A stretch of DNA of 16,586 nt from Caldifarciminota bacterium (lineage in GTDB: Bacteria > Hydrothermota > UBA3072 > B12-G15): contig JAGGTX010000131.1 in NCBI GenBank assembly GCA_021163525.1, positions 1 to 16,586 of the forward strand, written 5' to 3'. A program made the translations under genes and the position numbers. Positions 5,814 through 15,824 of the stretch are shown here, piece after piece; positions within the stretch are counted from its first letter, which is position 1, and each line of letters begins with the position of its first letter. Under the pieces are notes generated by a model. It saw only the letters and a program-made list of their open reading frames with translations, did no database searches and was not told where the DNA came from.

Positions 5814-5844
5814 GGCCCCTGTCCGGAGGGCGGAGACAGGGGCC
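5814..5844 (-). terminator. Rho-independent terminator of the minus-strand operon
   Basis: A perfect 10-base-pair inverted repeat (GGCCCCTGTC at 5814-5823 and GACAGGGGCC at 5835-5844) encloses an 11-base loop. Read on the minus strand, the stem is followed at once by TTTTTTATATTCT, a good U-tract. It lies 57 bases beyond the stop of the HtrA-like gene. On the plus strand the stem is preceded by the A-run and not followed by U, so it should act mainly on the minus-strand operon, though it may also slow read-through from the dipeptidase gene. Confidence 0.88.
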
Positions 5845-5900: not shown

Positions 5901-6872
5901 TCATTTACCACCACCCTGTGGAGGGCTTCCCTGCGGCATCAGAGAACCAGTCCCGGGTCCTTTGATATGGAGGTTCCTGTATTTAAGAGGAGGTGCCGCC
6001 TGACCAAGTGTTATATTGAAGGATATTTTTTTTCTCTTTCTTTTTACAATTATTTTTATACGCTCACCTCTTTTTTTATTTTTTATGTATGATGCAACAT
6101 CCTCCATGCTTGTTATTTTTTTTCTATCAATGTATAAAATGATGTCGTTTTTCTTGAGGCCGGCCTTTTCTGCAGGAGAACCTCGCACAACATCCCTTAT
6201 ATAGACTATCCCATTTCTCTCATATAAGGAAACTCCAAGCCATGCCCTTCTAATTGAACCCTTTTTTAATATTATGCCAGCAATAACCTTAATGTGATTG
6301 TATGGTATTACAATGCCAACGTTTCCAGAGTAAAACAGACTTAAATCCTGTGGAAGGGATACCAGTTCCCTGATGGTTATTGGACTCATCACACCGCCGA
6401 TTATTCCAATCAATCTGCCATTCATATCAAAAACACCACTCCCGTTGTTTCCCGGGTTTAGTGGTACGACAATCTTATAGATGTCCATATCTTTATGAAT
6501 TATTCCCAGACCAACAGGCCCAAGTGTTCCAAATGAGTTTCCATAAACAAGACCAAGCTGGCCAGTTACGGGATTTTTTATTCCAGAAGGGGGGTTGAAT
6601 GATTGGGTTGTTTTTATTACAGCAATTCCCGAGAATTCGTCAACGCCCGCTACAACCCCCTCAATGTTGTTGTTGCTATAGGTTATCAAGGTTACGGGTA
6701 ATTTGTCGGGGAACATGCCAGCGGTCACAACTGTATTTCTATCAATTATAGTTCCAGTTGCGTTTCCTTCATCAGAAACAACCATTACAACATACCTTGA
6801 TACTTTCTGGGTTAAGGCCCTCACATTTTCGTCAAGTGTTGTCAGTAAAGAACAAAATATTAACAAAAGCAT
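5901..6872 (-). CDS. HtrA/DegS-like trypsin-fold protein with PDZ domain, catalytic triad lost
   Basis: Exported or membrane-anchored HtrA/DegS-family protein, 323 residues. A hydrophobic N-terminus (about 2-12) is followed by a trypsin-like domain (about 25-200) and one PDZ domain (about 208-292, from AWLGVSLYERNGIVYI). The Gly/Pro-rich tail ends PPQGGGK. The fold landmarks align without gaps to active HtrA, but each catalytic residue is replaced. TAGMF (50-54) has Met53 where T-x-x-H has His. DEFSGIAVIK (78-87) has Gly82 for Asp. NPGNNGSGVF (139-148) has Asn143 for Ser. It is therefore predicted to have no protease activity. It starts 2 bases after the anti-sigma stop. By analogy with DegS it may sense peptides through PDZ; that role is inference. 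N-terminal basic residues, usual in signal peptides, are lacking. Confidence 0.85.
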   Translation of the reverse strand: MLLLIFCSLLTTLDENVRALTQKVSRYVVMVVSDEGNATGTIIDRNTVVTAGMFPDKLPVTLITYSNNNIEGVVAGVDEFSGIAVIKTTQSFNPPSGIKNPVTGQLGLVYGNSFGTLGPVGLGIIHKDMDIYKIVVPLNPGNNGSGVFDMNGRLIGIIGGVMSPITIRELVSLPQDLSLFYSGNVGIVIPYNHIKVIAGIILKKGSIRRAWLGVSLYERNGIVYIRDVVRGSPAEKAGLKKNDIILYIDRKKITSMEDVASYIKNKKRGERIKIIVKRKRKKISFNITLGQAAPPLKYRNLHIKGPGTGSLMPQGSPPQGGGK

Positions 6873-6874
6873 GT

Positions 6875-7318
6875 TTAGAAGGTACCTCCCTGGTAGGATG
6901 TTAGAACATAATTCCCCTCCACTGTATAAACAGGAAACTGATAACCACTCTGTTCTTCCTTGATGATGTAAAGGTCCTTTGACCTTCCAGCAAACCTGTA
7001 GGAGGGTCTGAAGAAGTAGAGGGACAGTCCAATTGCAATAAGTATGAAGGACATGCCCATTGCAAACCTGTAAAGCACCCTGAATGGCGATGGTTGTGTT
7101 TCATTTTCAACCCTGTATTTGATCTTCTGGAACATATAGGGATTTAACTCTGGTATCTTTATCCTTAATGTCTCTTTCTGGATTGCCTTAACATCCTCAA
7201 CAAGGGTTCTGCATTCAGAACAGTGGGTTAAATGAGACTCAAAGTCCTCCTTCATTCCAGAATGGAGGAGACCATCAATGTAATCTGAAAGGTACTTCTT
7301 TACATCTTTACAGTTCAA
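6875..7318 (-). CDS. Membrane-anchored zinc-finger anti-sigma factor
   Basis: Anti-sigma factor that would hold the adjacent ECF sigma factor inactive at the inner membrane. The cytoplasmic N-terminal domain has the ZAS pattern: Cys3, then H29-x3-C33-x2-C36 (HLTHCSEC). One transmembrane helix follows at about 85-103 (FAMGMSFILIAIGLSLYFF), and then a short extracytoplasmic tail of about 44 residues. Total length is 147. The start is TTG, chosen because GAGGAGG (7323-7329) sits four bases before it and the frame fits C3. It lies inside the last codons of the sigma gene, an 11-base overlap that suggests coupled, stoichiometric synthesis. The short outer tail leaves little room for a large sensor domain, so signal reception may rely on the HtrA-like partner encoded next. 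Confidence 0.88.
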   Translation of the reverse strand: MNCKDVKKYLSDYIDGLLHSGMKEDFESHLTHCSECRTLVEDVKAIQKETLRIKIPELNPYMFQKIKYRVENETQPSPFRVLYRFAMGMSFILIAIGLSLYFFRPSYRFAGRSKDLYIIKEEQSGYQFPVYTVEGNYVLTSYQGGTF

Positions 7319-7787
7319 GCTTCCTCCTCAGGGTTTCCCTTAATTCAAGCCTTGCCCTGTTGAGCCTTGACTTCACAGTCCCGATAGGGATATTCAATGA
7401 CTGAGAGATCTCTTCATAGTTCAATCCGTTCATCTCTCTGAGGATGAAAACCTCCCTGTATTCAGGTATAAGTTTCTGGATTGCCCTTTCAATCTCTATC
7501 CTTTCCTCTGCCATTGTATCCCTTTCCTCAACCTGGATGACCTTGCCTTCCTCCCTCTTTCTTTTCCTCCATTTGTCATATATGATGTTTCTTGATATTC
7601 GCATAAGATATGCCCGTATGTTTTTAACCCCTTTCTTCCCATGTTTTATGGCCCTGTAAAAGGTCTCCTGAAGAATGTCATCAGCCTCATTCCTGTTCTG
7701 GACCATACCGTATATAAACCTGTATAAAAATTCAGCCTCCGCATTATAGATGTCTTCCCATTCTTCCATTTTCATATTAGAAGACAT
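7308..7787 (-). CDS. ECF-subfamily RNA polymerase sigma factor
   Basis: Sigma-70 family extracytoplasmic-function sigma factor, 159 residues. Region 2 spans about 17-80, with EADDILQETFYRAI, then NIRAYLMRISRNIIYDKWRKRK for -10 recognition and melting. Region 4 spans about 103-155, with LIPEYREVFILREMNGLNYEEI and the helix-turn-helix SQSLNIPIGTVKSRLNRAR. It lacks region 3, as usual for ECF. It lies 24 bases after the sppA stop and overlaps its anti-sigma gene. The ATG at 7787 has no Shine-Dalgarno and its first base lies in a small hairpin. Met5 or Met7 (MKMEEW) are alternative starts that would keep all domains. Its target promoters are unknown; autoregulation of this operon cannot be shown from the window. 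Confidence 0.92.
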   Translation of the reverse strand: MSSNMKMEEWEDIYNAEAEFLYRFIYGMVQNRNEADDILQETFYRAIKHGKKGVKNIRAYLMRISRNIIYDKWRKRKREEGKVIQVEERDTMAEERIEIERAIQKLIPEYREVFILREMNGLNYEEISQSLNIPIGTVKSRLNRARLELRETLRRKLEL

Positions 7788-7801
7788 TTCAGGAGGCTGA
7801 A
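7786..7801 (-). promoter_or_regulatory. Small hairpin at the sigma-factor start codon
   Basis: In the minus-strand message the perfect 6-base-pair stem TTTCAG/CTGAAA (tetraloop CCTC) runs directly into the ATG of the ECF sigma gene, so that the A of the start codon is part of the stem. No Shine-Dalgarno sequence is present on this strand in front of the start. Ribosomes finishing sppA 24 bases upstream could open it, giving coupled translation. The stem is short and may be weak; a regulatory role is inference. Confidence 0.35.
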
Positions 7802-7811
7802 AAGTTCCAGG

Positions 7812-10031
7812 TTATTTCAGTCTCACAATCACAGGTTCAATGTATAAAAATGGGCTCTCAAGGAGTTTCAGAACAGGAATATCCACCAGGGTATTCGCAT
7901 GGTCCTCAAGCAGGGTTTCAATGAAGGAAGCAGGATGTGGATAGAGTGTAATTCCCACCTTTCCCTTGATGCCAGCCATTTTCTTTGCCTCTTCAATGGC
8001 ATCAAGCAATCCTCCATTGTGGTCCACAATACCAATCCTGACTCCATCTGCACCACTCCAGATATGACCCCTGCCAATGGCATCAATGGAATCTTTATCC
8101 ATCTTTCTTCCTTCAGCAACCCTTTCAAGGAAAAGTTCATATCCATACCTTATAACCCGCTCCAGCCTATTTTCCTCCAATTGGTCAAATTTCCTGTAAT
8201 CAGCAAATGCATCTGCATGCTTCCCCCATTTCACTGCCTGGTGGCTTATCCCTATCTTTTTATATAGTTTCTCCATTACAAACTTTCCTCCAAAGATACC
8301 AATGGAACCTGTGAGTGTGGTTTTGTCTGCAAAGATCTTCTTCCCACCAGCAGATATGTAATAACCTCCAGATGCAGCAACATCACCCATTGAGATGACA
8401 ACGGGCTTTTTCTCAGAGAGTTTTTTTATAGATTTCCACATAATATCAGAGGCAAGGGCATCACCACCCGGAGAATTTACCCGTATCACAACTGCCTTTA
8501 TTGATGGGTTCTTCATCACTTTTTTTATCGTGGATACGAATGTTTCTGAACCAACTGTTTTCCCACCGATTATAGGTATTGGGAGGAAAGGCTCAGAACT
8601 CTTTCCCTGGACAATGCTTCCTTCTGCAACAACAACTGCAATGTTTGGTAAGAAGCCTCTAACAAGCGCCCTTGGGACTGCTTCTCCATGGAGTATCCTT
8701 GCCTTTTTCTTTATTTTTAAGTGGTCCTTAACATCATCCAGATACATTAGCGTATCAACAAGATTATACCTGACTGCTTCGGCAGGTGTGAAGTAACCCA
8801 CCGTGTCAATGAGCCCTGCAAGTTCTGATGCTGGTATACCTCTTGATGATGCAATCCCATTTATCATAACATCCACAATGGTCTTAATGTATGCGTTCAA
8901 TTGCTCCCTATCAGCAGTGCTCATGGTGTCTGAAATCAGAGGTTCAACTGCACTCTTGTATTTTCCTATCCTTGCGAACTGGGCCTCAACACCAATCCTG
9001 TCCAGCATGCTTTTTAGATAACTCTTGATAACAACAACACCTGGAAGGGAGATACCACCTGAAGGTGGAATTATTACAGAATCACAGGCACTGGCAATAA
9101 AGAGGTTTTTAAGGGTGAGTTGATCTGCATAGGCAAAGGTCCTTTTCTCCTTGCTTATTTCCTTTATTAATTTTTCCAACTCCTCTGCCTGGGCAACACC
9201 AAGGTCGTTATTCTTTATCACAAATAGAACTGTTTTAACATACTTTGTATCCCTGATATCCTTCAGCAGTTGTAGAAGGTCAAGAAAACATTTGCTCTTT
9301 TTAAGGAATCTTTTTGTTGGTAGTTCAGGATACTTTCCCTCAATCTCAACCACAATGCGGGTTCTGAATCTTTTCAGGAGTGAAGGGAAGGGGGTTAGTG
9401 ACGCTGTTATCATAGTATTGTAAGATTCTATACTGTTTGAGTAAGTGCCAGTATATCTTCCTCTTAGATTTGCCAGTGATATGACCAATCCTACAAATAA
9501 CCTCTTTTCCTGGAACTGATAGCCAATTCTCATTCCAAGACCATCAATGGGTTCGCCGTAAGCCTCAACAAAGGCTTTTCTGCCGGTTAAATCAGGTAAA
9601 ATGCCGATGTCGTATCTACCAGTTATTGTAATTTTATCCGAATTTGGTGGCTGTAGGCTTACCCCAATGTGCGTGTAAATATCCGATAGTGATTTGAGGA
9701 AACCCGTTATTCCAATAGAGACACCATAAGTGGGCCTGATGCACATTCCTATAAGATACCTTTCCATTCCACCGTCATACCCGATCCCCGTGGAAAACCT
9801 ATCCTTGAATGAGAATATAGTTGAACCTGTTATAAAATGGATTGTATCCCCTTTATAGCGAATACCAAAACCTGATTTTCCAAATGAGAGTAGATAATAA
9901 TTTTCAGGATAAACATAGGAAAATTCATATCCGTGATGAATTCCGAGCCCGGCTGGGTTCTCAAGCAGTGACAACGACCTTTCAATGTTTGATGGGGATA
10001 GCAGAAGAAGGGATAAAAAAAGCCCGATCAT
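7812..10031 (-). CDS. sppA: Signal peptide peptidase SppA (protease IV) with N-terminal beta-barrel-like domain
   Basis: Serine-lysine membrane-associated peptidase that degrades cleaved signal peptides, 739 residues against about 620 for the long E. coli form. After a hydrophobic leader (2-12), about 215 extra residues (20-235) look like alternating beta-strands. They start with ENPAGLGIHHGYEF, the N-P-A-G-L pattern seen in PorV/FadL-type outer-membrane proteins. The two S49 repeats follow: the N-terminal half carries the general-base Lys359 in GKYKSAVEP, the C-terminal half the nucleophile Ser554 in AASGGYY. Both residues of the dyad are present, so the enzyme should be active. The start has AGGAGG five bases upstream, overlapping the stop region of the zinc-ribbon gene. 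The barrel-like fusion is unusual and might place the peptidase at the outer membrane or periplasm; that is inference. Confidence 0.9.
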   Translation of the reverse strand: MIGLFLSLLLLSPSNIERSLSLLENPAGLGIHHGYEFSYVYPENYYLLSFGKSGFGIRYKGDTIHFITGSTIFSFKDRFSTGIGYDGGMERYLIGMCIRPTYGVSIGITGFLKSLSDIYTHIGVSLQPPNSDKITITGRYDIGILPDLTGRKAFVEAYGEPIDGLGMRIGYQFQEKRLFVGLVISLANLRGRYTGTYSNSIESYNTMITASLTPFPSLLKRFRTRIVVEIEGKYPELPTKRFLKKSKCFLDLLQLLKDIRDTKYVKTVLFVIKNNDLGVAQAEELEKLIKEISKEKRTFAYADQLTLKNLFIASACDSVIIPPSGGISLPGVVVIKSYLKSMLDRIGVEAQFARIGKYKSAVEPLISDTMSTADREQLNAYIKTIVDVMINGIASSRGIPASELAGLIDTVGYFTPAEAVRYNLVDTLMYLDDVKDHLKIKKKARILHGEAVPRALVRGFLPNIAVVVAEGSIVQGKSSEPFLPIPIIGGKTVGSETFVSTIKKVMKNPSIKAVVIRVNSPGGDALASDIMWKSIKKLSEKKPVVISMGDVAASGGYYISAGGKKIFADKTTLTGSIGIFGGKFVMEKLYKKIGISHQAVKWGKHADAFADYRKFDQLEENRLERVIRYGYELFLERVAEGRKMDKDSIDAIGRGHIWSGADGVRIGIVDHNGGLLDAIEEAKKMAGIKGKVGITLYPHPASFIETLLEDHANTLVDIPVLKLLESPFLYIEPVIVRLK

Positions 10032-12182: not shown

Positions 12183-14507
12183 ATGGGATACAGGAAGTTG
12201 AAATACGATGAAATTCTCTTCAAACCTCCAGACCTTCCATTCAAGCACACCGGGGAAATAAAACGGCGAACAGAGATTGTAGGTCAGGCCAAAGCGCTTG
12301 ATGCACTTATGGTTGCCATAGAGACCGAGCAACCCCATTACAATATTTTTGTTTCAGGCCCACCTGGAACAGGCAGGCGCACAGCAGTCAGGCACATATT
12401 GAAAAAGGTTAAGAAAAAGAAGAGGCCAGAGGATAAATGCTATGTTTACAATTTCTCCAACCCTGATTCACCAATTCTGCTCAGGTTCAGGGCAGGAGAG
12501 GGAAGGAAATTTAAGAAGGAATTTGAATCTCTTGTTTCTGCACTACTTACAATGATACCAGAGGTCTTACAGGGGGAGGTTGTTCAGAAGATAAGGGAAA
12601 GAATTATTGAGAAGTACAAGAAAAAGGAGGACAGAATTTATAAGGATTTTGAAAAGAGGGCATTGAAGAATGGTTTTCAGGTCTCTGTTGTTAAGGTTGG
12701 TCCTTTACAGAAGCCTGTATTGAAACCCATTATTGATGGAGAGGCTATTGATTTCCAGACACTTGAGCAACTTGTAGATGAGGGAAAGGTGAAGAAGACA
12801 GAGTTTGAGAGGATTGAGAAGGTATACAGGGAACTTTCTTTTGAACTCCAGGCAGTTCTCAAGGCAATATCTGATGAGAATAAGAGGGCGGCAGTTGAAC
12901 TTGAGGAGTCCGTAATGGATGTTTTAAGACCACTGGTTGAGATGAAGATTGATGAACTCAAAGAGAATTTCAGGGATAAAAAGGTTGGAATGTTCCTTGA
13001 TGCATTTCTTGAGGATTTAATGGGCGACCTGAACAACCTTATCAAATCCGAGGGGTTCCCTTTGAAGTACAGGGTTAACCTTCTTGTTGACAACAGCAAT
13101 GTGAAGACTGCTCCGATTGTGTTTGAAAACTCTCCGACATTTAATAAGTTATTTGGCACCATAGAGGTGACCACTGATAGCAATGGCACAATAAGAACAG
13201 ATTTTACAATGATAAGGGGAGGTTCGCTTCTGAAGGCCGATGAAGGTTTTCTCGTCCTTAATGCGTACGATGTGCTCACCGAGCCTGGTGTCTGGGAAAA
13301 GTTGAAAAGGACACTGCGTAATGGTGAACTTGAAATCCAGCCAAGAGATTATCCTGGAATCTTTGCCCTCACAGGTCTGAAACCCGAGCCAATAAAGATC
13401 AATGTGAAGGTGATTATGATAGGTGAACCCTATCTGTATGCAATCCTCTATAATAATGACCCTGAATTTGGTAAACTCTTCAAGGTGAGAGCGGATTTTG
13501 ACAATGAGATGGATTTATGTAAGGAATCTGCAATGCAGTATGCATATGTGATCAAGAAGGTATCAGAGGATGAGAAACTCCTTCCTGTAAAAAAGGATGC
13601 AGTTCTGAGGTTGATTGAGTATGGAGTGAGGCTTGCAGAGAACAGGAAGAAGATTTCAACAGAATTCAACAGGATTGCTGATGTTGTGAGGGAGGCAAAT
13701 TACTGGGCAAGGCAGAAGAAAAAGAAGTTCATTACTGAGAAGGAGATAAGGGAGGCGATTGAACACAGGTACAGAAGGTCAAACCTTATTGAGGAGAAGA
13801 TCCTGGATATGATAAGGAGTGGGGACATCTTTGTGGATGTTGATGGGTTTGCCGTTGGTCAGATAAATGGGCTGGAGATTTACTCCATTGGTGACCTTGA
13901 GTTTGGCAAACCTGTAAGAATAACGGCAACTGTATCCATAGGGAATGAGGGGGTGGTGAATATAGAGAGGGAGGTCCAGCTTTCAGGCCCTATCCACTCC
14001 AAGGGGGTTTTGATACTTGCAGGTTTTTTAAGGGAAAGGTTTGCACAAAAATTTCCCCTCTCCCTAAATGCCTCAATTTGCTTTGAGCAATCATACACAG
14101 GGATAGATGGTGATAGTGCATCATCTGCTGAACTTTATGCCATTATATCAGCCCTTTCAGGTGTGCCCATTGACCAAAGTCTGGCAGTAACAGGTTCTGT
14201 GAATCAGAAGGGCATGATTCAGCCAATTGGAGGTGTGAATGCAAAGATTGAGGGCTTCTTTGATGTATGCAAAATAAAGGGTTTGACAGGGAAACAGGGT
14301 GTGGTGATACCAGAGACCAATGTTGATGAACTTTTGCTCAAAGAGGAGGTTGTGGAGGCAATAAAAAAGAAGAAGTTCCACCTGTATTCTGTTAAGACCG
14401 TTGAAGAGGGTATTGAATTGCTCACCCACATGCCTGCCAGTGAGGTGTTCAAACTTGCAGAGAAAAAGTTGTTTGAGTATGCAGAAACTCTTAAGAAGTA
14501 TAAATAA
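12183..14507 (+). CDS. Lon-family protease with degenerate ATPase domain (AAA_32/LonC-like)
   Basis: Cytoplasmic Ser-Lys protease of the Lon superfamily, 774 residues. The N-terminal AAA-like domain has a P-loop region GPPGTGRRT (59-67) where the Walker A lysine and following Thr are both Arg. The expected Walker B acidic pair reads LVLNAYD. A long charged helical insertion (about 115-275) separates the two AAA parts. The proteolytic domain (about 560-740) carries Ser645 in DGDSAS and Lys688 in GGVNAKIEGF, so it should be active. This layout matches the AAA_32 plus Lon-C group; in Meiothermus LonC such proteins are ATP-independent. Start is fixed by CAGGAGG five to six bases upstream. It has its own promoter. 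Substrates are unknown. It could instead retain weak ATPase activity, since Arg at this site occurs in the family. Confidence 0.88.
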   Translation: MGYRKLKYDEILFKPPDLPFKHTGEIKRRTEIVGQAKALDALMVAIETEQPHYNIFVSGPPGTGRRTAVRHILKKVKKKKRPEDKCYVYNFSNPDSPILLRFRAGEGRKFKKEFESLVSALLTMIPEVLQGEVVQKIRERIIEKYKKKEDRIYKDFEKRALKNGFQVSVVKVGPLQKPVLKPIIDGEAIDFQTLEQLVDEGKVKKTEFERIEKVYRELSFELQAVLKAISDENKRAAVELEESVMDVLRPLVEMKIDELKENFRDKKVGMFLDAFLEDLMGDLNNLIKSEGFPLKYRVNLLVDNSNVKTAPIVFENSPTFNKLFGTIEVTTDSNGTIRTDFTMIRGGSLLKADEGFLVLNAYDVLTEPGVWEKLKRTLRNGELEIQPRDYPGIFALTGLKPEPIKINVKVIMIGEPYLYAILYNNDPEFGKLFKVRADFDNEMDLCKESAMQYAYVIKKVSEDEKLLPVKKDAVLRLIEYGVRLAENRKKISTEFNRIADVVREANYWARQKKKKFITEKEIREAIEHRYRRSNLIEEKILDMIRSGDIFVDVDGFAVGQINGLEIYSIGDLEFGKPVRITATVSIGNEGVVNIEREVQLSGPIHSKGVLILAGFLRERFAQKFPLSLNASICFEQSYTGIDGDSASSAELYAIISALSGVPIDQSLAVTGSVNQKGMIQPIGGVNAKIEGFFDVCKIKGLTGKQGVVIPETNVDELLLKEEVVEAIKKKKFHLYSVKTVEEGIELLTHMPASEVFKLAEKKLFEYAETLKKYK

Positions 14508-14564: not shown

Positions 14565-15824
14565 ATGCTCCTTATAACAGATGTTGAAAAGGGTTCAATA
14601 GGCGATAGGGCTGGTTTGAAACCAAGCCAGTATATACTCTCCATCAATGGAGAAAGGGTTGATGATGCCCTTGATTTCAGATTCCATACTGCTGATGAAA
14701 TTCTTGAGATAGAGATAAGAGAGGGTGAAGAGATATTCAGGATTTATGTTGAAAAGGATATAGACCAGGACCTTGGTGTTCAGGTGAAGGATTTTGTTAT
14801 AAGGAGGTGCCAGAACAACTGTATATTCTGCTTCATGGACCAGTTGCCCGGAGATGCCAGAAAGTCCTTATTTGTTAAGGATGATGATTACAGGATGTCT
14901 TTTCTCTATGGTAATTTCATAACCTTGACAAACCTTGTTGAGAATGACTTCAAAAAGATTGAAAGACTCAGGCTATCCCCTCTTTACATCTCTGTGCATA
15001 CAACAAACCCATCTTTGAGGGAGTCCATAATGAGAAACAAAAATGCCGGAAAGATTAAAGAACAGATGATGAGATTGATCTCCTCCGGTATAAAACTGCA
15101 TACACAGATTGTTCTTTTGCCTGGAATAAATGACGGAGAGGAGTATCTTTCAACTGTTGAGGACCTTGCTTCAATGTATCCAGGTGTTCTATCCATAGGT
15201 GTTGTCCCGGTTGGGTTAACGGCTCACAGGGAGGGGCTTCCGCTTATTATATCACCTGACAGTGACTGGGCTAAGGAAATCATTCATATTTCAAAGCCCT
15301 ATCAGGAAAAATTCAGGGAACAGTTTGGCATTACCTTCCTTTACCTTGCAGATGAGTTTTACATACTTGCAGATGAAGAGATACCTAAAAGGGAGTTTTA
15401 CGATGATTTCCCCCAGATAGAGAACGGGATTGGAATGGTGAGAAGGTTCCTTGATGGGCTTGAGTATATGGAAGTTCCACAGATGAGCGGAAGGACAATC
15501 CTTGTGACAGGTGTGCTTGCTGAACCCTTTGTAAAAAAACTTGAGGAAAAATTCAAAAAAACGGGGCAGAGGGCTGAGACCGTTGTTGTTAAGAACAGAT
15601 ACCTTGGTTCTTCTGTTACCGTTGCTGGACTCCTTCCAGGGTGGGATATACTTGCCATGGTTTCAATGATTGAGGGAGAGAACATTATTCTTCCTCCGTA
15701 TGTTGTTAATAGTGATGGAAAATTTATAGATGATTTTTCAATAGATGATATGCGAAAGTTTACAGGGAAGAGGGTTTATGTTGCTCCTTCAGATATAACG
15801 GAACTTGCAGGGGTTATAAAATGA
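14565..15824 (+). CDS. PDZ-radical SAM-DUF512 protein
   Basis: Putative radical SAM enzyme of the DUF512 family, 419 residues. Residues about 1-65 form a PDZ-like domain (ITDVEKGSIGDRAGLKPSQY). A CxxxCxxC iron-sulfur motif follows (C82, C86 and C89 in CQNNCIFCFMDQLP), then a TIM-barrel-like segment with YISVHTTNPSLRESIM. The C-terminal DUF512 part contains GMVRRFLDGLEY and VTGVLAEPFVKKL. Its activity is not established; it is widely found beside der in Clostridia and other phyla. Here its stop overlaps the der start by ATGA, so a shared role in ribosome or translation maturation is a reasonable inference. The start at 14565 fits the PDZ fold; GGAGG lies 13 bases upstream, somewhat far, with AAAGGG closer (six bases). 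No clear promoter is visible in the 57-base gap after the Lon-like gene. Confidence 0.88.
   Translation: MLLITDVEKGSIGDRAGLKPSQYILSINGERVDDALDFRFHTADEILEIEIREGEEIFRIYVEKDIDQDLGVQVKDFVIRRCQNNCIFCFMDQLPGDARKSLFVKDDDYRMSFLYGNFITLTNLVENDFKKIERLRLSPLYISVHTTNPSLRESIMRNKNAGKIKEQMMRLISSGIKLHTQIVLLPGINDGEEYLSTVEDLASMYPGVLSIGVVPVGLTAHREGLPLIISPDSDWAKEIIHISKPYQEKFREQFGITFLYLADEFYILADEEIPKREFYDDFPQIENGIGMVRRFLDGLEYMEVPQMSGRTILVTGVLAEPFVKKLEEKFKKTGQRAETVVVKNRYLGSSVTVAGLLPGWDILAMVSMIEGENIILPPYVVNSDGKFIDDFSIDDMRKFTGKRVYVAPSDITELAGVIK

Follow-up and report, generated by a model that had tools for sequence, protein, structure and literature searches.

The window analysed here, a stretch of 16,586 nucleotides (contig JAGGTX010000131.1) from a Caldifarciminota bacterium, carries a gene for a DegS/HtrA-like protein in which all three catalytic residues have been lost. 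It is the third gene of an operon, behind an ECF sigma factor and an anti-sigma factor, and it belongs to a family whose 34 aligned members all lack the catalytic His and Asp. The reading that we prefer, and whose chances we judge to be about even, is that a dead DegS-like protein in the RseB slot binds and shields the anti-sigma tail; its export, the binding, the shielding, the signal and the self-regulation are what we infer.

A DegS-like protein without a catalytic triad

The gene and its parts are the following.

5901-6872, minus strand: HtrA/DegS-like pseudoprotease of 323 amino acids, with an N-terminal hydrophobic segment, a chymotrypsin-fold domain and one PDZ domain
6714-6716, minus strand: codon of Met53, at the catalytic His position by alignment
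6627-6629, minus strand: codon of Gly82, at the catalytic Asp position by alignment
6444-6446, minus strand: codon of Asn143, at the catalytic Ser position, within the best conserved region tested (residues 136-156)
6303-6407, minus strand: enlarged L2-type loop, residues 156-190 (35 residues versus 17-24 in canonical HtrA)
6003-6257, minus strand: PDZ domain, residues 206-290, with the WLGV loop kept (domain search and alignment)

Domain searches, a predicted structure and a structural match to DegS all gave a DegS/HtrA fold with a PDZ domain for the 323-residue product. The chymotrypsin-fold domain followed by a PDZ domain that marks the HtrA/Deg family is present; the His-Asp-Ser triad that marks its enzymes is absent. 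The protein is probably secreted. It scored under the cut-off of the NCBIfam DegS model (36.3 bits versus 422.95), the NCBIfam MamO model was absent from the 23 families that it matched at E 0.01, and no MucB_RseB domain was found among its Pfam matches. The initial annotation of the window had placed Met, Gly and Asn at the triad positions. Three separate MAFFT alignments and the structural match to DegS confirmed this and ruled out a triad misplaced by alignment; MAFFT moves the Met53/His column by one residue, with no His in either placement. Given the loss of the triad, DegS-type cleavage of the periplasmic domain of the anti-sigma factor by this protein is very unlikely. By L2 loop we mean here the stretch that links the strand following the active-site loop to the one behind it. 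The WLGV loop of the PDZ domain, the carboxylate-binding loop, is kept in most aligned rows.

Comparison of the window with G123, a genome of the same genus, gave a dN/dS of 0.104 for the pseudoprotease gene (0.082 for the protease domain and 0.097 for the PDZ domain), with 0.055 for the sigma factor, 0.208 for the anti-sigma factor and 0.078 for an intact HtrA. The pseudoprotease is under purifying selection. Among nine regions compared in the 12 closest relatives, the ruined active-site loop (136-156) was the best conserved, at 0.81; the PDZ loop scored 0.64 and the remainder of that domain 0.59. That a cleft unable to cut has stayed the most conserved part of the protein points to binding.

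Extent of the family and loss of the triad in relatives

We use WOR-3 for the phylum of the window, other relatives being named candidate division WOR-3, and Aminicenantes for records named Aminicenantes, Saccharicenans or Acidobacteriota together with one uncultured bacterium. When 147 WOR-3 genomes were searched with a profile of 22 relatives, 20 of them, spread over ten family-level groups, had a family member with 213-394 bits. The next score was 168 bits, where the canonical HtrAs begin; membership follows from a profile built from triad-less sequences, but canonical HtrAs score far below the members. The Aminicenantes relatives are about 30% identical. The family proper, window included, comprises 34 aligned rows (20 WOR-3 and 14 Aminicenantes). 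Some of its proteins bear the database names S1C family serine protease or serine protease Do.

Catalytic His and Asp were absent in all 34 rows. The Asp position is occupied by Gly, His, Lys, Asn or Arg in WOR-3 and by Arg, Gln, His or Gly in Aminicenantes. At the Ser position, the WOR-3 rows have Asn (9/20), Ser (8/20) or another residue (3/20), and all 14 Aminicenantes rows have Ser. Loss of His and Asp is common to all members, and the triple loss in the window is its extreme form. A search for orthologues with an intact triad found none among the 34. The L2 loop measures 28-48 residues in every member versus 17-24 in 100 canonical rows, without overlap, L146 and L152 (Glu for Asp) being placed among the canonical rows in this comparison. 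Loss of His and Asp, an enlarged L2 loop and an ECF sigma gene plus a one-TM gene upstream, the traits by which we delimit the pseudoprotease family, were all found for the window protein.

In a tree of 69 rows, 36 canonical and 33 degenerate rows were separated by a 100/100 branch; the canonical rows are a chosen part (22 from the phylum and 14 from named genomes) and the truncated L020 was left out. Since the two kinds fall on opposite sides of that branch, a single origin of the triad loss is the simplest reading and is consistent with the tree, although three long end branches, a long-branch warning and midpoint rooting make it uncertain. Separate recent losses in each genus are disfavoured by the same split, with the same uncertainty. 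The predicted structure of an Aminicenantes member was of lower confidence (mean pLDDT 70.6, pTM 0.50); the secondary-structure elements in it are consistent with a protease domain plus two PDZ-like parts and a long helix at the C-terminus. One Aminicenantes member scored 24.3 bits with the MamO model of NCBIfam (cut-off 800).

Some further sequences lie beside these. One pseudoprotease copy (G028:C7:27895-28785) contains a single in-frame TAA. Outside the family, L078 (Phe-Asp-Thr) and P0039 (Gly in place of Asp, Asn in place of Ser) are HtrA relatives with partly lost triads.

The sigma operon

The genes and sites preceding the pseudoprotease are the following.

7781-7808, minus strand: ECF-type promoter-like site GGAACTT-N15-TGTCTT, at the sigma start; similar sites occur at the same place in relatives
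7308-7787, minus strand: ECF sigma factor; true start probably the ATG at 7775, by comparison with relatives
6875-7318, minus strand: anti-sigma factor of 147 amino acids, with a zf-HC2 zinc finger, one predicted TM segment (85-103) and a 44-residue tail
6878-7009, minus strand: conserved tail ending ...YQGGTF, the proposed ligand of the pseudoprotease

The pseudoprotease gene starts two bases after the anti-sigma gene. We infer that the 44-residue tail is periplasmic. The ATG at 7775 is the likelier start of the sigma gene also because the promoter-like site at 7781-7808 overlaps the called start.

An ECF sigma gene and a short one-TM gene were found upstream in 31 of the 32 WOR-3 and Aminicenantes members with enough upstream sequence, L022 (at a contig edge) and L049 (without upstream sequence) lying outside this count; the family sequences are related, so neither the operon counts nor the C-terminus counts below are independent events. 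The exception, L016 (genome G011), has no sigma gene in 1.4 kb upstream. The wider count covered 135 ORFs, 98 intact and 37 degenerate. A sigma gene stood within 2 kb upstream of only two intact homologues (L056 and L061, both from Pseudomonadota); 83 others had at least 1.1 kb of upstream sequence and no sigma gene, and 13 had less than 1.1 kb and no sigma gene. Thirty-one of the degenerate ORFs had one, L016, L078, L146 and L152 had none, and L022 and L049 were short. The arrangement at L056 and L061 resembles that of MucD in the algU-mucA-mucD operon. These MucD-type homologues differ from the pseudoprotease in having an intact triad and in falling on the canonical side of the tree.

The short gene had a zf-HC2 match in 17 of 18 linked WOR-3 operons (one of them under the cut-off), L009 being the exception, and all 31 short genes encode a hydrophobic segment that we read as a single TM. 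No Pfam match was found in the four Aminicenantes middle proteins tested, so these proteins are called anti-sigma factors by position and TM segment; the one compared with NCBIfam gave a weak anti-sigma match (17.1 bits, cut-off 100). A search with the anti-sigma protein of the window found only three close relatives. The one-TM proteins of Aminicenantes (L039-L052), with their conserved end ...[IV]xY, are perhaps a zinc-less anti-sigma family.

Around the operon, a gene for a Peptidase_S49 signal peptide peptidase-like protein (7812-10031, minus strand) lies directly upstream of the sigma gene; the same gene is there in G123 and other genes in other relatives. On the other side, an inverted repeat noticed by eye (GGCCCCTGTC...GACAGGGGCC, 5814-5844), between the convergent M19 dipeptidase and pseudoprotease genes, is perhaps a two-way terminator. 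Elsewhere in the window, a LonB/LonC-like protease gene (12183-14507, plus strand) is followed by a gene for a DUF512 radical SAM protein (14565-15824, plus strand) with a PDZ_6 domain of its own.

The anti-sigma tail as a candidate PDZ ligand

The tails of the 31 linked TM proteins are 42-76 residues long. Their last residue is Tyr in 17, Phe in eight, Pro in three, and Leu, Met and Arg in one each, so that 25 of the 31 end in an aromatic residue (Phe/Tyr). Among 51 zf-HC2 matches we examined 30 loci, 15 linked and 15 unlinked, one of the latter being cut by a contig end; of the 14 unlinked proteins from those genomes whose C-terminus is complete, none ended in Phe, Tyr or Trp. The difference in aromatic ends between linked and unlinked proteins gave Fisher p values of 2e-7 for all and 1e-4 for WOR-3 alone, relatedness being ignored. 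The tail end follows Y-x-G-G-[ST]-[FL] in 8/8 proteins of the window's order and [IV]-x-Y in 13/13 of Aminicenantes. In DegS and AlgW the PDZ domain binds the C-terminal ends of outer-membrane proteins or of MucE, and the peptides used for activation end in Phe (PMC8103513, PMC8545111). The aromatic ends, this precedent and the WLGV loop kept in the PDZ domain together suggest that the anti-sigma tail is a candidate PDZ ligand.

Promoter-like sites and a possible regulon

Of 17 WOR-3 operons with sufficient sequence, 12 have a GGAAC-N16/17-CGTC-like site close to the called start of the sigma gene; none of 13 Aminicenantes operons has one. Mononucleotide shuffles gave an expectation of 0.92 among the 30 operons; the pattern was chosen after the window's own copy had been seen, and two of the 12 sites, those of L009 and L013, carry less weight (their spacing differs or they lie inside the called gene). 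From the promoter-like site, the sigma operon probably regulates itself.

A strict pattern matched 19 times in eight genomes of the window's order versus 14 times for a reversed-pattern control, and twice versus three times in G000 plus G123. As these totals are near the control, we rely on a site only where it turns up ahead of one type of gene in several genomes. Of the 19 sites, five precede the sigma operon and three an Hsp20 gene with a triad-intact HtrA gene next to it, the Hsp20 being recognized by Pfam in two genomes and by similarity in the third. Two more precede PPIC-type isomerases (in two genomes), two precede sugar transferases, and seven look unrelated or are without an assigned target. 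The promoter stood directly upstream of a canonical HtrA at one of 16 loci; in the three genomes mentioned it lies one gene further up, before Hsp20. A sigma-E-like regulon in WOR-3 comprising the sigma operon, Hsp20-HtrA, PPIC isomerase and sugar transferase sites (7781-7808 in the window, and L195-L213) is possible.

Genuine proteases and comparison with known systems

By alignment, a triad-intact HtrA is encoded in the window's own genome, which also has M50 site-2 protease candidates. An M50 protease over the cut-off was found in all 20 genomes with the pseudoprotease (the window's own genome being 75.6% complete), and HtrA could be aligned from 16 of the 20, 15 intact and one with Glu for Asp. 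A MucB_RseB match over the cut-off was found in none of the 20, with weak matches in two. Because intact HtrA and M50 proteases are present and MucB_RseB over the cut-off is absent, the pseudoprotease is better compared with RseB than with a replaced DegS. The initial idea of binding instead of cutting may hold for the pseudoprotease itself and probably does not extend to the whole pathway, given the triad-intact HtrA and M50 candidates of the genome.

RseB follows rpoE and rseA in the operon rpoE-rseA-rseB-rseC (PMC4336711), and binding of MucB/RseB suppresses site-1 cleavage (PMC8545111). The pseudoprotease is alike in following the sigma and anti-sigma genes; the tail binding and site-1 block that we propose for it are read from this position and the conserved tail. 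It differs in having an HtrA fold without a MucB_RseB domain. From DegS/AlgW, the site-1 proteases of the RseA/MucA pathways, it differs in the lack of a triad in 34/34 members, in the enlarged L2 loop and in being encoded as the third gene inside the sigma operon. MamO is likewise an HtrA scaffold with a degenerate triad and non-catalytic roles beside an active paralogue (PMC4794232); it is, however, a metal-binding magnetosome protein of magnetotactic bacteria. Guarding of an anti-sigma factor by binding has a precedent in FoxA, whose signalling domain attaches to the C-terminal domain of FoxR and keeps this anti-sigma factor from proteolysis (PMC11637429), but the FoxA partner is part of a TonB-dependent receptor and not an HtrA fold. 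HtrA pseudoproteases and anti-sigma shields are thus each already known; a literature search among open-licence papers found no publication on an ECF-linked HtrA pseudoprotease.

Proposed mechanism and alternatives

In the periplasm, the conserved dead cleft and the PDZ domain would hold the anti-sigma tail, the PDZ domain taking its free aromatic C-terminus. While bound, the tail would be shielded from the true site-1 protease, a role that probably falls to the genome's own triad-intact HtrA. Competition for the PDZ domain would come from outer-membrane proteins that have failed to assemble, with C-termini that may be similar to the tail, or from some other envelope signal; the tail would then be released and cut, an M50 protease would finish the cleavage, and the free sigma factor would turn on its own operon plus chaperone and protease genes until extra pseudoprotease reset the switch. 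The competition step is weak for outer-membrane proteins because the three Omp85-family proteins of the window's genome end in Leu, Phe and Leu. Six of the 31 tails without an aromatic end and one unlinked pseudoprotease (L016) also speak against the shield.

The strongest rival, which we hold to be unlikely, is an activating adaptor, which would attach either to the tail of the anti-sigma factor or to the intact HtrA and stimulate cleavage. MamO, itself an HtrA pseudoprotease, activates MamE-dependent proteolysis without catalysis of its own (PMC4794232), and both the triad-intact HtrA of the same genome and the promoter-like site of the sigma factor before Hsp20-HtrA in three relatives would suit such a role. 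As an argument only, a co-transcribed third gene fits RseB-like negative feedback better. Less likely again, the protein could be a regulon member that has no part in signalling, a periplasmic chaperone of unfolded proteins that simply shares a transcript with its sigma factor: a promoter-like ECF site heads the operon and HtrA proteins can act as chaperones (PMC12826053), yet linkage to a sigma and a TM gene in 31/32 members of two groups, and aromatic ends on linked but not on unlinked zf-HC2 proteins, suggest a partnership. That Ser-retaining members still cut by another mechanism is very improbable. Ser is indeed kept in 14/14 Aminicenantes and 8/20 WOR-3 rows, but the residue in the Asp column is not constant (Gly, His, Lys, Asn, Arg, Gln), the window protein has no Ser, and a search for another catalytic set in the 22-row alignment A2 found no further His, Cys or Lys at 80% conservation. 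Several Lys are conserved in the Aminicenantes alignment, so the case against such cutting is less firm there. A decaying gene that stays in frame by chance is scarcely credible, since in spite of the in-frame stop of the G028 copy the dN/dS of 0.10 rules out degeneration and, with members in ten family-level groups, bears out the selected pseudoprotease of the initial annotation.

Implications

Returning to the shield, we tentatively extend it, with some doubt, to an old class of sigma-E-like circuit in WOR-3 and Aminicenantes, in which a site-1 protease fold would have become a ligand-gated anti-sigma clamp, stress peptides would displace an OMP-like aromatic tail from the PDZ domain and cutting would be left to another enzyme. 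The binding of a C-terminal Phe/Tyr by the PDZ domain is a clean prediction that can be tested with peptides, and the system offers a handle on envelope-stress control in both groups. If the proposal is true, it shows how a sensor protease can turn, within a stress circuit, into a protein that senses by binding alone, and how the former substrate, the anti-sigma tail, has perhaps become a permanent ligand.
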